A DNA stretch of 64,000 nucleotides from positions 117,863 through 181,862 of the forward strand of contig NZ_JAUYHK010000018.1 in NCBI RefSeq assembly GCF_030690045.1, given 5' to 3'. A model generated the notes under the pieces. That model did not search any database and was not told the origin of the DNA. It saw nothing but the letters and a program-made list of their open reading frames with translations. The DNA is from Thalassospira sp. Lineage in GTDB: Bacteria; Pseudomonadota; Alphaproteobacteria; Rhodospirillales; Thalassospiraceae. Positions 11,496-16,669 of this stretch are shown here, piece by piece. A program made the translations under genes and the position numbers. The stretch's first letter is position 1; every line of letters starts with the position of its first letter.

Positions 11496-11729
11496 CAAAA
11501 GCCTCTTTCATTCTCGGGGATGCGCCACGCCTGCACCAAAAGGTTTTTGTGCCATACGGGCGGATAATCTTGCCGAGATGTAAGCCCTGAGCCGCCCGGA
11601 CGCAAGCAAGTCTTGTCGTTTTACCTCTTGAGATTGCATAAAATTGGGTTAATAATCGGTTCCGGTTGGCAGGGGCTGCGTGATTTGCAGCAGGGGATCG
11701 CATTTCCGGCATAAAGCTAAGGATTGCAG

Positions 11730-12965
11730 ATGACATACCCGATGACACTGGACTGGAAACAAAAAAAAGTTCTGGATTTCTTTCAGACCCATATCACACG
11801 CGGGACACTGGTGTTTCGGGTGGATGGCAAGCACGAAATCGTGCTGGGCGACGGCAATTTGCCCCGCGCCGGGATCACATTGCCCGATTGGGCCGGGACC
11901 CTTAAAATGGCGATCAGCCCGGACCCCGGTTTTGGTGAAGTCTATATGCATGGCGGCTTTGATATGACATCCGACGAGCTTGAGGATGTGATCAAGGTGT
12001 TGCGCCTGAATTTTGAAGGCGGCCATTCAAAAAGCAGTTTCGGCCCGCTGATCGAACGCATTCAGGCCCTGAAATTCCAGATTGCACAATATACTTCGGT
12101 TCGCGCGGCATCGCGCCGGGTGCGGCATCATTATGATATCGGCAATGATCTTTATACCCGGTTCCTTGACCCCGACATGCAATATTCCTGCGCGTTCTGG
12201 GATGACGGGGCTCTGACCCTTGAAGAAGCCCAGCACCGCAAAATGAGCCTGACCACCCAGCGCCTGAAAATTGACAGGCCGGGTTTGCGGGTGGTGGATG
12301 TCGGTTGTGGCTGGGGCGGGTTAAGCCGCTTTATCCGCCGCCATTCCGGGGCCGAGGTGCATGGCATTACGCTTTCGACCGAACAACTGGCATGGGCGCA
12401 GGACCGCAAGGCGGAATTGCCCGCCGAATTTCATCAGGGGCTGGATTACCATTTGATGGATTACCGGCTGTATGCCGATGCCAATGCCGGGCGTTATGAC
12501 CGGGTGGTGTCGGTCGGGATGTTTGAACATGTCGGGCGTCCGCAATTTCGCACCTATTTTAACAAAATCGCGCAATTGCTGAATGATGGCGGGCGGGCGG
12601 TGATCCATACGATCATCAAGCCGCGCCCGGATTTTACCTCGCCGTGGATTGACCGTTATATTTTTCCGGGCGGATATATTCCCGCCGCGCACGAGGTTCT
12701 GGCCGCCGCCGAACAGGCGGAATTGCGGGTCGAGGCCTGTCATTTCCATGATGGCAGCAATTATGCCCGCACCCTGATGGCGTGGCGCGACCGTTTCCGG
12801 GCAACAATCGATCAGCTTGACCCGCAAAAATATGACAACGAATTCAAACGCATGTGGGAATTTTATCTGGCCGGGTGCATCAATGCCTTTGACGCGGGCG
12901 ACGGCGGGGGCGGTATGCGGGTCGGCCAATTTGTCTTTACCAAACCCGGTTACCGGCACACATGA
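11730..12965 (+). CDS. cfa: Cyclopropane-fatty-acyl-phospholipid synthase family SAM methyltransferase
   Basis: 411 residues from the ATG at 11730, with AAGGA seven bases upstream; the ORF track uses an upstream TTG at 11724. Residues ~130-160 carry HHYDIGNDLYTRFLDPDMQYSCAFW and ~190 carries VVDVGCGWGG, the SAM-binding motif I. Both are typical of CFA/Mma-type synthases that methylenate unsaturated acyl chains of membrane phospholipids in situ. FEHVGRPQFRTYF is the conserved catalytic block. The first ~110 residues form the family's lipid-binding N-terminal domain. The gene lies just upstream of an ECF41 promoter. A close relative using another lipid substrate cannot be excluded. Confidence 0.88.
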   Translation: MTYPMTLDWKQKKVLDFFQTHITRGTLVFRVDGKHEIVLGDGNLPRAGITLPDWAGTLKMAISPDPGFGEVYMHGGFDMTSDELEDVIKVLRLNFEGGHSKSSFGPLIERIQALKFQIAQYTSVRAASRRVRHHYDIGNDLYTRFLDPDMQYSCAFWDDGALTLEEAQHRKMSLTTQRLKIDRPGLRVVDVGCGWGGLSRFIRRHSGAEVHGITLSTEQLAWAQDRKAELPAEFHQGLDYHLMDYRLYADANAGRYDRVVSVGMFEHVGRPQFRTYFNKIAQLLNDGGRAVIHTIIKPRPDFTSPWIDRYIFPGGYIPAAHEVLAAAEQAELRVEACHFHDGSNYARTLMAWRDRFRATIDQLDPQKYDNEFKRMWEFYLAGCINAFDAGDGGGGMRVGQFVFTKPGYRHT

Positions 12966-12992
12966 AACGGCACAATAATTTTCGGGTGATCC

Positions 12993-13019
12993 TGTAACAA
13001 ACGCCATCGCTGTCTCGTC
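12993..13019 (+). promoter_or_regulatory. ECF41-type promoter for the CMD-sigma unit
   Basis: TGTAACA at 12993-12999, a 16-base spacer, then CGTC at 13016-13019. The published ECF41 consensus I recall is TGTCACA-N16-CGTC, so spacing and -10 match exactly and one base of the -35 differs. It lies 50 bases upstream of the carboxymuconolactone-decarboxylase gene that precedes the ECF41 sigma gene, as expected for autoregulation. Confidence 0.75.
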
Positions 13020-13020
13020 C

Positions 13021-13055
13021 TGTTTGCAACGGGTGATTTTCACCTTCTGCAAACA
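13021..13055. repeat. 35-bp dyad between ECF41 promoter and CMD gene
   Basis: TGTTTGCA-acg-GGTGA-ttt-TCACC-ttc-TGCAAACA: two nested perfect arms of 8 and 5 bp with a symmetric 3-base internal loop. It begins two bases after the -10 motif and ends just at the ribosome site (AGGAAA at 13055-13060). It could be an operator or a 5'-UTR hairpin that hides the ribosome site. No U-tract follows, so it is not a terminator. Confidence 0.7.
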
Positions 13056-13069
13056 GGAAAGATACCGTA

Positions 13070-13504
13070 ATGAGCCGTTTTGAATTTCCCAAAGCCACGC
13101 CGAAACTGTTTCAGGCCATGTTGAAACTGGCCGATGCCCTGTCGGATAATGCAGCGATCCCGCCGGTTTTGCGCGATCTGATCGAAATCCGGGTATCGCA
13201 AATCAATAATTGTTCCCATTGCCTGCGCATGCATGCCAAAAGTTTTATCGAACATGGCGGCGACACCCGGCAACTGACGATGGTGGCGGTATGGCGCAAT
13301 GCCAACGGGTTCGATGCGGCGGAACGTGCCGCCCTTGACTGGGCCGAATGCCTGACGCGCAATGCTGACAAGGACACAATTTCGCAAAGCTATCAGAACC
13401 TTCTGGCGCATTATGACGTTGCCCTGATTTCCGAAATCTCCTGTATCGTTTCGACGATGAATGCCTGGAACCGGTTGGGGATTGCACAACACGAACTTGC
13501 CTGA
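13070..13504 (+). CDS. Carboxymuconolactone decarboxylase/AhpD-like protein partnered with ECF41
   Basis: 144 residues. The redox motif NCSHCLRMH (~residue 46) with C-x2-C and a following His is the AhpD/CMD-family active site, and ERAALDWAECLT (~80) is the usual second block. Members act as small thiol peroxidase-like or proton-relay enzymes in the cytoplasm; the true substrate of ECF41-linked CMD proteins is unknown. It lies 82 bases upstream of the ECF41 sigma gene in the same direction, the typical association described for this sigma group. An ECF41-type promoter and a long dyad precede it, so it is probably the sigma factor's main target. Confidence 0.85.
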   Translation: MSRFEFPKATPKLFQAMLKLADALSDNAAIPPVLRDLIEIRVSQINNCSHCLRMHAKSFIEHGGDTRQLTMVAVWRNANGFDAAERAALDWAECLTRNADKDTISQSYQNLLAHYDVALISEISCIVSTMNAWNRLGIAQHELA

Positions 13505-13586
13505 AAAACGGTTTTTTTGCCGGAATAATCATGATTGGCGATGTGGGTCCTTGCCCGCATCGCCGGTGCCATTTGTGGATTGACCC

Positions 13587-14474
13587 ATGCAGGATGCGAT
13601 ATTCGAGGATCACCGGCCCCGTTTGATGGCGCTGTCTTACCGGATGCTGGGCAGTCATTCCGACGCCGAAGATGCGGTGCAAGATGTCTGGCTGCGCTGG
13701 CGTGCCGCCCGGCATGATGAATTGCGCGATGTCACCGGCTGGCTGGTGCGGGTCTGCGGCAATATCTGTCTGGATGTTCTGAAATCCGCCCGGCGGCAAC
13801 GCGAAACCTATGTCGGGCAATGGTTGCCCGAACCATGGGTGCCCTCCATCCCGCCCGAGGCCGAAGACAACCTGATCCTGCGCGATGATTTGTCGCAGGC
13901 CTATCTTTTGATGCTGGAACGGCTTGATCCGGTGGAACGGGTGGCGCTGGTCCTGCATGAAGTGTTCGACTGGAACCACGATGCCATTGCCCCGGTGATC
14001 GATCGCACCGCCAACAATGCCCGGCAAATTCTGTTTCGCGCCCGGCGGAAAATGGCGGATGATGTTCCCGGCAGTCCGCTGCGTGCCGCCGATATCATGA
14101 TGGCCGATCGTGATGATATTGCCGCCTTTGTCGAGGCGTTTGGCAGTGGCGATGTCACCCGGATCATGGCGCATCTGGCCCCGGATGTGACCCTGCATTC
14201 CGATGGTGGCGGCAAGGCATCGGCGGCGGTCAACCGGATTTACGGTGCCGATCATGTGGCACGCTTTTTTGCCGGAATCCGGCGCAAGGCCCCGGCGGGG
14301 TACATATCGGAAATCGTGCGGGGCGGGGCGGAATATTGGCTGTTATTGCGTATGAAGTCCGGCGAAATGCCGGTAACGGCCATCAGTTTCCGTCAGGATG
14401 ACACCGGGTTGCATGACATTTTCATTCACCGCAACCCGGATAAAATCGCCCTGTTTGCCCGTCTTGCCGCCTGA
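13587..14474 (+). CDS. ECF41-family RNA polymerase sigma factor with C-terminal SnoaL-like extension
   Basis: 295 residues. Region sigma-2 covers ~1-75 (YRMLGSHSDAEDAVQDVWLRW) and sigma-4 covers ~105-160. A ~110-residue NTF2/SnoaL-like domain follows in place of a separate anti-sigma factor. All three ECF41 signature motifs are visible: WLPEP in the linker (~residue 76), DGGGK in the C-terminal domain (~211), and NPDKI at the end. In studied ECF41 proteins the C-terminal domain both restrains and assists transcription, and the target is the neighbouring CMD/oxidoreductase/epimerase gene. Here that neighbour is the CMD gene with a matching promoter. The stimulus is unknown. Confidence 0.93.
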   Translation: MQDAIFEDHRPRLMALSYRMLGSHSDAEDAVQDVWLRWRAARHDELRDVTGWLVRVCGNICLDVLKSARRQRETYVGQWLPEPWVPSIPPEAEDNLILRDDLSQAYLLMLERLDPVERVALVLHEVFDWNHDAIAPVIDRTANNARQILFRARRKMADDVPGSPLRAADIMMADRDDIAAFVEAFGSGDVTRIMAHLAPDVTLHSDGGGKASAAVNRIYGADHVARFFAGIRRKAPAGYISEIVRGGAEYWLLLRMKSGEMPVTAISFRQDDTGLHDIFIHRNPDKIALFARLAA

Positions 14475-14479
14475 TCCTG

Positions 14480-16531
14480 TCAGGGATTGGCGGTAATGCC
14501 CAGTCCCAGCAATTCGGCTAGGGCGGGCGGCGGTAATTGCCCGCCTGCAAGGGCACCGATCAGCACAGGCTGTTGCGGGGCAAGGCCGATTTGCAAATGC
14601 TGCGGGGTGGCCAGCCATTCCGCCAACTGGCCCAGCGCATCGGCCAGAACCGGGCTTTGGGCAAAGGCCTGCTGGGTTTGCAAAACCGTCATCCCGGCCA
14701 TCAATTGCATTTCGTCGGGTGCCATACCGTTTTGCAATGATGCCAGACCCAGCATGAAGGGCAGCAATTTTTCGCCCGACACTTCAAGATTGGCTCGGGC
14801 AAATTCAAGCTGCGTCATCACAATGATGCCCAGATTGCCAATATCGGCAACCTGCGTGTCGAGCAGGGCATGCATGGTGTCGGCAGGCAAGCCGGCCAGC
14901 ACCAGTTCCAGTTTTGCCGCCCCGATATCGCGCAGTTCCAGATTGTCGATGGCATAAATATAGGTGCCGTCTTCCGGGTTCCAGACCTGATGCATTGCCA
15001 TATCAAGGGTCAGAGTGTTGAGGTCGTCGATATCAAGCGTTTCCAAAATCACCGGGTCATTGGCAATCCTGTCGGGAAACCGGATTTTCAGGCCGGAAAC
15101 CGTGCTATCCAATGACCGTGCATAGGCGAAACCGGCATTGGGTGGCGTTTCAATATCGCCAAATTTCCCGTCCAGAAGATCAATCATGGTGCCGAATTGC
15201 TCGTCATCGGAGATGTCGATATCGAGTTTTTCAAGGCGATAGGATTCAAACAGGGGGCGGCCCAGGGGAAAGCCCAGTTCGCCCATCGTCATTTCCTGCA
15301 TGCGGGCCATTTGCGCCTCGGGATCGTTCAGGCGGCGCGTGGGAAAATGATTGTCCCATAAGGCAATCAGTTCCGGAAAATGGATGCGCCGGACATCCAG
15401 TGCCCCGACTTTCAAGGACACAGCCGGGCTTTCTTCAAGGGTGACAAGCCTGAAACCGGCCGCATCAAGTTGCCCCAGAATGCCTGCGTCCAAACCGTTC
15501 AGGGCAAATCTGCCAAGGCCAATTTCGCCTTCGGGTACGGTGATTTTCGGGTCTTGCAGGGATACGCTGGCAAAACGGATGGCCTTGATCGCGGCAATCA
15601 TTTGATCCGGGTCGGGATTGGTTTGCAGATCGCGCCACATATCGGGGGTGATGTCGTGGTTAAAATCGCTGATTTCAATCTGCCCGACAGACATGCCACC
15701 ACGATTACCACGATCGGCAATTGCCAGCCCGTCAAGACGGGCCATGCCAATGCTGCGCACCGTCAAATCCTTGCCGTCAAAGGCGGCAATATTGACGGTT
15801 GTGGTATCGTCAAGTGTCAGCGACAGGTCGGAAAAGGCGATTTCCCGGCACAGGGCGGCGTCGGTGGCATCAATCGTGCTGTCCAGTAACTGGCCGATCA
15901 GTTGCACCGGACCGGCACATTCGGCAAACGCGCCCTGGGCCATGTTGCCACTGACCGGTGTGGGGGCGGTTTTGCTGAAATTCCAGTCGGTAACGTTCAG
16001 GCTGCCAATCGTGTCATAGCCGATATTGGTGCCGTCCAGCCGGGCAAAGCGGTTTTGATGGACACCGTTTTGCAGGGTGACATCAATGATGTCGGCCTTG
16101 CCGGCAACATAACCCTGCGGCATCCATGTGGCGGTGTTGACCTGAACATTTTCAAGGGTGGCCTGCTTCATGGTGATTTTCAGGCCGTTGCGGGTGATGC
16201 GCGGATCATCAAGCCGCATTTTTGCGGCAATGCCGCTGCTGCCCGGTGTGATGCCGTAAAAGGCCAGCCAGTCCACGCCGTCAAATTCAATCCGGTCCGC
16301 TTCGTAATAGGAACCATCCTGATGGGCCAGTTTGATATTGTTGGCCGACAGGGTGCCACCAAACAGCGACATGCGAAAATCGGAAAATTCCCCGCGTACC
16401 TGCGATGCCGGATCGGTCAACGTCGCACGCAACTGGCTCAGCATATAGGCGGGGGCGGCAAAATGCAGACCTGCACCTACCAGTCCGGTGACGACAATCG
16501 CCCCGAGAATCAGCTCTTTTCTTCTGCTCAT
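14480..16531 (-). CDS. Large membrane-anchored protein of unknown function
   Basis: 683 residues from the ATG at 16531; an upstream in-frame ATG at 16645 would add 38 residues without hydrophobic character. Residues ~8-30 (LILGAIVVTGLVGAGLHFA) form one N-terminal membrane anchor. The rest is soluble, rich in Asp/Leu, with many short strands such as GRFALNGLDAGIL and GLAIADRGNRGG, suggesting a repetitive beta structure outside the cytoplasm. This resembles AsmA/DUF-type bridge proteins in general shape, but I cannot assign a family. It is convergent with the sigma gene (5-base gap) and follows leuB after a terminator, so it has its own promoter. Confidence 0.75.
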   Translation of the reverse strand: MSRRKELILGAIVVTGLVGAGLHFAAPAYMLSQLRATLTDPASQVRGEFSDFRMSLFGGTLSANNIKLAHQDGSYYEADRIEFDGVDWLAFYGITPGSSGIAAKMRLDDPRITRNGLKITMKQATLENVQVNTATWMPQGYVAGKADIIDVTLQNGVHQNRFARLDGTNIGYDTIGSLNVTDWNFSKTAPTPVSGNMAQGAFAECAGPVQLIGQLLDSTIDATDAALCREIAFSDLSLTLDDTTTVNIAAFDGKDLTVRSIGMARLDGLAIADRGNRGGMSVGQIEISDFNHDITPDMWRDLQTNPDPDQMIAAIKAIRFASVSLQDPKITVPEGEIGLGRFALNGLDAGILGQLDAAGFRLVTLEESPAVSLKVGALDVRRIHFPELIALWDNHFPTRRLNDPEAQMARMQEMTMGELGFPLGRPLFESYRLEKLDIDISDDEQFGTMIDLLDGKFGDIETPPNAGFAYARSLDSTVSGLKIRFPDRIANDPVILETLDIDDLNTLTLDMAMHQVWNPEDGTYIYAIDNLELRDIGAAKLELVLAGLPADTMHALLDTQVADIGNLGIIVMTQLEFARANLEVSGEKLLPFMLGLASLQNGMAPDEMQLMAGMTVLQTQQAFAQSPVLADALGQLAEWLATPQHLQIGLAPQQPVLIGALAGGQLPPPALAELLGLGITANP

Positions 16532-16643
16532 ATGTCCGTGCTTTCCGTTGCTGTGTCGCGCAAGGGTATTTTTTTGAGGATTGCTATCCAGTTGTATGGT
16601 CTTGCCGCAATCTGTCAAGCACCCTTTCGCAAATGCGGGCAGC

Positions 16644-16669
16644 AAAAAAGCCGGGTTTCCCCGGCTTTT
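16644..16669 (-). terminator. Rho-independent terminator after leuB
   Basis: GCCGGG-TTTC-CCCGGC flanked by A and T runs; on the minus strand the stem is followed by TTTTTT. It lies 33 bases after the leuB stop and ends the leucine operon. Confidence 0.88.

Follow-up and report, generated by a model that had tools for sequence, protein, structure and literature searches.

ECF41 sigma factors are widespread, and the window analysed here (the whole stretch of 64,000 nucleotides of Thalassospira sp. DNA) contains one whose gene follows a CMD gene. The question raised by this locus is what the sigma factor recognises at the CMD promoter, where the -35 element departs by one letter from the family consensus, and how that recognition may be tied to translation of the CMD message.

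The CMD-ECF41 operon and its promoter

The locus comprises the following features:

11724-12965, plus strand: cyclopropane fatty acid synthase gene (cfa; CMAS, 253 bits)
12993-12999, plus strand: -35 element TGTAACA (family consensus TGTCACA), read from sequence and conserved in the genus
13016-13019, plus strand: -10 element CGTC, within the genus-conserved TCGTCCT; invariant in 29/29 genomes
13070-13504, plus strand: ORF for a CMD-family AhpD-like protein of 144 aa (ATG at 13070, stop at 13504)
13587-14474, plus strand: ORF for the ECF41 sigma factor of 295 aa (ATG at 13587, stop at 14474)
14480-16645, minus strand: 721-aa ORF without a Pfam match

The sigma factor is organised as follows:

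residues 5-70: sigma2
residues 79-83: WLPEP, in the sigma2-sigma4 linker
residues 104-156: sigma4
from about residue 175: SnoaL-like (NTF2-like) domain
residues 206-210: DGGGK
residues 283-287: NPDKI

A sequence-only reading of this DNA had described a complete ECF41 module with a matching target promoter. Reading the sequence directly, we found the ORFs, motifs and promoter where it had placed them, with the COE gene upstream of the sigma gene on the same strand and a promoter before the COE gene only. The sigma factor carries the three motifs and the fused C-terminal domain, in agreement with Pfam (Sigma70_r2, Sigma70_r4_2 and SnoaL_2, all above cut-off). It scored 285.7 bits against the NCBIfam SigJ subfamily (cut-off 271), and its nearest solved structure is M. 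tuberculosis SigJ (5xe7, E 1.8e-39). In a predicted structure, whose pTM is only 0.46 and whose linker (residues 75-102) is unreliable, the whole chain matched SigG1 and SigJ and the C-terminal part matched NTF2-like enzymes.

ECF41 was defined by the WLPEP motif, a C-terminal extension and a COE neighbourhood (Wecke et al. 2012, PMC3426412). Here, sigma2 and sigma4 are the only sigma domains and are followed by a C-terminal extension (about 100 residues in the family); WLPEP and the extension motifs are conserved in the genus. The order COE then ECF on one strand is the commonest layout with a COE partner (107/373), and the promoter precedes the COE gene in 97/107 of these cases (PMC3426412). 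We found a sigma orthologue with CMD directly upstream in all 29 Thalassospira genomes searched, among which protein identity goes down to 43%. No anti-sigma gene was found among the neighbours checked (cfa and the 721-aa ORF), while the COE gene is present at 13070-13504. In plan, the module is thus an ordinary ECF41 member with a common published layout. The 721-aa ORF is convergent with the sigma gene and begins a few bases past its stop.

The CMD protein contains the AhpD-type motif CxxCxxxH (C48, C51, H55) and matched PF02627 (59 bits), the ahpD core domain (ahpD_dom, 46 bits), and the structures of Atu0492 (2gmy) and PA0269 (2ijc, 2o4d) with E values from 2e-19 to 2e-23. The AhpD relay has the form E-x11-CxxC-x3-H. 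Its Glu is absent here, being replaced by Asp36 (Asp, Glu, Ser or His in relatives), and we therefore do not assume AhpD enzyme activity for this protein. The earlier statement that the CMD substrate is unknown across the family was fair, and can be refined in that the protein falls within the AhpD-like CxxC group, outside the decarboxylases.

The promoter TGTAACA-N16-CGTC spans 12993-13019, with a 16-nt spacer and 50 nt from CGTC to the CMD ATG. The pattern has a single match in the 64 kb of the window, where 0.02 would be expected. The genus-extended form, TGTAAC-N16..18-TCGTCCT, matched exactly once in the 4.23-Mb genome and was matched in 28/29 genus genomes; the -35 element is TGTAAC(A/G) in 28 orthologues, and the exception (L026) has CGTAACG at the orthologous place. 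A genome-wide search for the consensus, which the sequence-only reading had recommended, was uninformative in its loose form alone and became specific only with the extended motif, which is unique to the locus. The loose pattern TGTNACA-N15..17-CGTC gave 11 matches in the whole genome, fewer than the 26 of a reversed control; the only one preceding a COE gene was the CMD-sigma locus, and the others lay inside ORFs or before non-COE ORFs. Loose matches were dropped as evidence for a regulon, as they showed no enrichment over the control. One sequence on the minus strand (L003, G000:C6:161632-161658; it begins TGTTACAGGAACGTC) precedes an ORF of 117 aa; with its GGAAC, it may belong to another ECF group.

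Conservation over 29 genomes supports a functional promoter in the genus, and we regard the operon and promoter assignment as very likely. Since transcription in S. meliloti starts 9 nt past the ECF41 promoter motif (PMC3616915), the start expected here by analogy would lie at about 13026-13029.

The cfa gene lies upstream of the CMD-sigma module in most relatives. There, a conserved ORF of about 140 aa separates cfa and CMD (window 12965-13070 compared with L016-L038); it is missing in the window, and as a result the cfa stop is only 27 nt from the -35 element. A terminator-like site was sought between the cfa stop and the promoter in the window and was not found. Given this short distance and the absence of a terminator between, read-through from cfa into the operon is plausible. 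In about half of the genus, the TGTAAC -35 sits in the loop of a strong terminator-like dyad, which is absent in the window. In L017, L018, L027-L029, L033, L036 and L038, this inverted repeat upstream of CMD is GC-rich and a short T-rich stretch comes after it; such a repeat around the -35 looks like an intrinsic terminator of the preceding gene.

The -35 element and the recognition helix

14004-14045, plus strand: codons of the sigma4 recognition helix, residues about 140-153 (N143, N144, I148, L149, F150)

The promoter had been reported to match the ECF41 consensus in spacing and -10. Both are indeed exact, but the fourth base of the -35 differs, and this mismatch, previously treated as minor, turned out to be the most informative letter of the promoter. 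It is A in 29/29 genus loci and C in 52/52 sites found at other ECF41 loci, nearly all of which are alphaproteobacterial. A phylum-wide draw of 24 loci gave a TGTCAC or CGTCAC site in 23 and no site in one. In total, the A of the genus contrasts with a C at about 75 ECF41 loci elsewhere in the proteobacteria.

The sigma protein differs in parallel. N143, I148, L149 and F150 are invariant in 29/29 genus sigma proteins, whereas N143, I148 and F150 occur in 0/57 and L149 in 1/57 of the other ECF41 proteins. In the alignment, F150 corresponds to F175 of E. coli sigmaE, the Phe of its FRAR motif and a residue that contacts T'-33 (PMC6713349). With the two -35 elements registered on their shared AC, T'-33 would be the partner of the switched base. 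As judged from sequence, Thalassospira carries a modified putative specificity pair, in which a TGTAAC -35 goes with an N143/L149/F150 helix. The two changes are probably linked as cause and effect. As the sigma change is one event in a single clade, assigning the effect to a particular helix residue would be provisional.

A second operon bears on this reading. Extra promoter matches in the genus pointed to an operon of NmrA-like and cupin genes in G010 and G011, and searching at the protein level brought the number of genomes that carry it to six (loci L088/L094 in G010, L089/L092 in G011 and L093/L123 in G020, and further loci L091, L122 and L124; the other three genomes are G007, G008 and G028). 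In G007, G008 and G028, CMD and a canonical ECF41 gene, the second ECF41 there, come after the operon, and the promoter is TGTCACT in G007 and G028, the two of this group that were read. In G010, G011 and G020, the operon has no adjoining ECF41 gene, only the Thalassospira-type sigma exists, and the promoters are TGTAACA, TGTAACA and TATAACA, respectively. An ECF41-type promoter sits 97 nt ahead of the NmrA-cupin ATG. This pattern is as expected if the operon had passed between sigma types, and the operon is a predicted unlinked ECF41 target in three relatives. The linked COE operon was the only ECF41 target detected by Wecke et al. (PMC3426412).

It is unlikely, though worth weighing, that TGTAAC and the altered helix reflect neutral drift and that the genus sigma reads TGTCAC equally well. 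A single origin within one genus and the joint alteration of several helix positions are what drift could produce; the fixation of one letter in 29/29 loci and of the other at about 75 loci elsewhere, an NmrA-cupin promoter that tracks whichever sigma type its genome carries, and the placement of F150 at the residue that contacts the switched base pair in sigmaE all argue against drift.

Predicted hairpins around the CMD gene

Two covarying hairpins, at 13019-13057 and 13534-13567, had been missed by the sequence-only reading:

13019-13028, plus strand: discriminator and hairpin 5' arm (CCTGTTTGCA), from fold and covariation
13048-13057, plus strand: hairpin 3' arm (TGCAAACAGG), overlapping the Shine-Dalgarno (SD) AGGA at 13055-13058, from fold and covariation
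13031-13036 with 13040-13045, plus strand: inner stem of the same hairpin
13534-13567, plus strand: hairpin between the CMD and sigma genes, 15-bp stem and 4-nt loop, from conservation and covariation

The arms of the first hairpin pair perfectly (z -3.1 for 71 nt). When the 10 distinct 5' arms were redealt among species, the observed pairing was never reached in 20,000 permutations (p 5e-5); this test ignores kinship but is free of the bias of the pair counts, in which arms registered by best fit favour structure and 24 cells were changed on both sides compared with 9.4 after shuffling (0/500). Covariation shows a stem that joins the discriminator to the Shine-Dalgarno. Its strength showed a weak inverse relation to that of the terminator-like dyad (rho -0.38, p 0.04, kinship ignored), which was not used.

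ECF41 mRNA is expected to start within or past the 5' arm, so that the stem should form only in longer transcripts. The computed cost of opening the SD in the window was 13.1 kcal/mol for an upstream start and 2.4 kcal/mol for a start 9 nt past CGTC, and the means over loci were 7.2 and 3.0 kcal/mol. In a test that shuffled the 28 nt on the promoter side, the SD was more occluded in the native sequence than in the shuffles (p<=0.05) at 66% of genus loci, at 7/22 CMD promoters elsewhere (where a few start codons were mechanically picked and may be wrong) and at 5% of controls (104 sites from window genes). Occlusion was absent in L039, L042 and S. meliloti. SD occlusion at CMD promoters is common, not universal. 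In L061, L063, L066, L054 and L053, from other alphaproteobacterial families, the -10/discriminator is complementary to the SD region; in L061, CTCGTCAGG pairs with CCTGACGAG, and in places CTCGTCA of the -10 itself is used. From the predicted folds, the chances that the start site gates CMD translation appear evenly balanced.

The covarying stem on the SD would also suit a hairpin within the normal ECF41 mRNA, acting as an RNA thermometer or as a switch that responds to a ligand or protein by opening, and the start position in the genus is itself a prediction. For such a leader, transcription would have to begin at 13020 or slightly upstream of it, on the very edge of the -10, which is unusual for ECF promoters. 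Moreover, ECF41 transcripts in other bacteria begin about 9 nt past the motif, and a start at that distance here would leave out most of the 5' arm; an Rfam search gave chance-level matches only and no family. We consider this regulated leader improbable. Still less probable is that the repeat acts as DNA, as the operator of a dimeric repressor: there is a near-perfect dyad directly downstream of the -10, but both arms covary in close relatives with a variable loop length, which one regulator is unlikely to tolerate, and the constant relation of the repeat is to the SD.

The second hairpin forms a strong stem in 29/29 genus genomes, with 15 doubly changed cells, 99% of cells paired and 0/500 shuffles reaching this level. 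It has no T-tract. Roles as an attenuator, a processing site or a 3' stabiliser are all compatible with it; it probably holds sigma output down relative to that of CMD, or shields the CMD part of the message.

Proposed mechanism and comparison with known systems

We propose, by homology, that the SnoaL-like domain keeps the sigma factor in check and that a small signal lifts this restraint. Active sigma would then start transcription 7-9 nt past CGTC (13016-13019), yielding the AhpD-like thiol enzyme and more sigma. Transcripts entering from cfa would fold the SD stem, leaving CMD untranslatable, and ECF41-started mRNA would lack the 5' arm, so that CMD could be translated; this gating step holds only with a start downstream of 13020. 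Speculatively, cfa read-through could supply the first sigma molecules without CMD.

The proposed mechanism draws on the family and fold matches, on conservation in 29 genomes and on the published sigma-dependence in relatives: CMD transcription is sigma-dependent in B. licheniformis, and sigma-responsive promoters were found in two species, including R. sphaeroides (PMC3426412). Sigma-dependence has also been published for this layout in S. meliloti (PMC6180224). Partial truncation of the ECF41 extension activates the sigma factor and full removal inactivates it; no ECF41 phenotype was found in the same study (PMC3426412). A self-regulated operon, in which the sigma acts at the CMD promoter and is restrained by its own C-terminus, is highly probable. 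The converse, a chance promoter match with CMD-sigma transcribed from cfa or another promoter, is scarcely credible: the loose pattern is no commoner in the genome than its reversed control, but position, spacing and extended motif are kept in 29 genomes whose protein identity goes down to 43%.

More tentatively, and with slightly more doubt than confidence, the observations may be joined into one reading: a natural orthogonal pair in which F150 and its neighbours read A instead of C at -33, a rewired NmrA-cupin operon, and a double lock, recurring at some ECF41 promoters, in which the promoter lies within the SD-blocking 5' arm and the sigma controls both transcription and translatability. 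A leak-proof leader on an ECF41 target suggests that CMD synthesis has to be prevented whenever the signal is absent. Together, the single changed letter of the -35 and the changed helix offer a directly testable sigma-specificity rule, useful for orthogonal promoter sets. Our literature search found no study of a Thalassospira ECF41, and no earlier description of the -35 switch, the SD hairpin or the second hairpin in the published literature searched.

The closest known systems are R. sphaeroides RSP_0606-ecf41Rsp and S. meliloti SMb20029-rpoE9, the latter the same single-target ECF41 operon (PMC6180224). Both share with our locus the order of CMD then sigma on one strand, a single promoter before CMD, a 16-nt spacer, CGTC, a CxxC CMD protein and the fused C-terminal domain. 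They differ in the -35 (TGTCACA there, TGTAACA here) and in the sigma4 helix, and the S. meliloti leader is without the SD occlusion seen in the window. M. tuberculosis SigJ (5xe7), the best PDB sequence match and among the top fold matches, has the same sigma2-sigma4 plus SnoaL_2 architecture, with ..AAARQLASRAR in the recognition-helix segment where the window has ..NNARQILFRAR. The CMD protein resembles Atu0492 (2gmy) and PA0269 (2ijc, 2o4d) as a member of the AhpD-like family with CxxCxxxH, but carries Asp36 in place of the E-x11-CxxC Glu found in PA0269.

For the leader, the nearest parallel is T4 gene e, in which the 5' strand of a hairpin that blocks the SD contains an alternative-sigma promoter and only transcripts begun there are translated (PMC3014915). 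In the window, likewise, the SD is paired with the strand containing the -10/start region. Unlike the window, T4 uses a phage late promoter; there is no homology, and gating in the window is predicted from opening energies. Compared with the known ECF41 plan, the locus adds a genus-wide variant of promoter recognition and of the leader.
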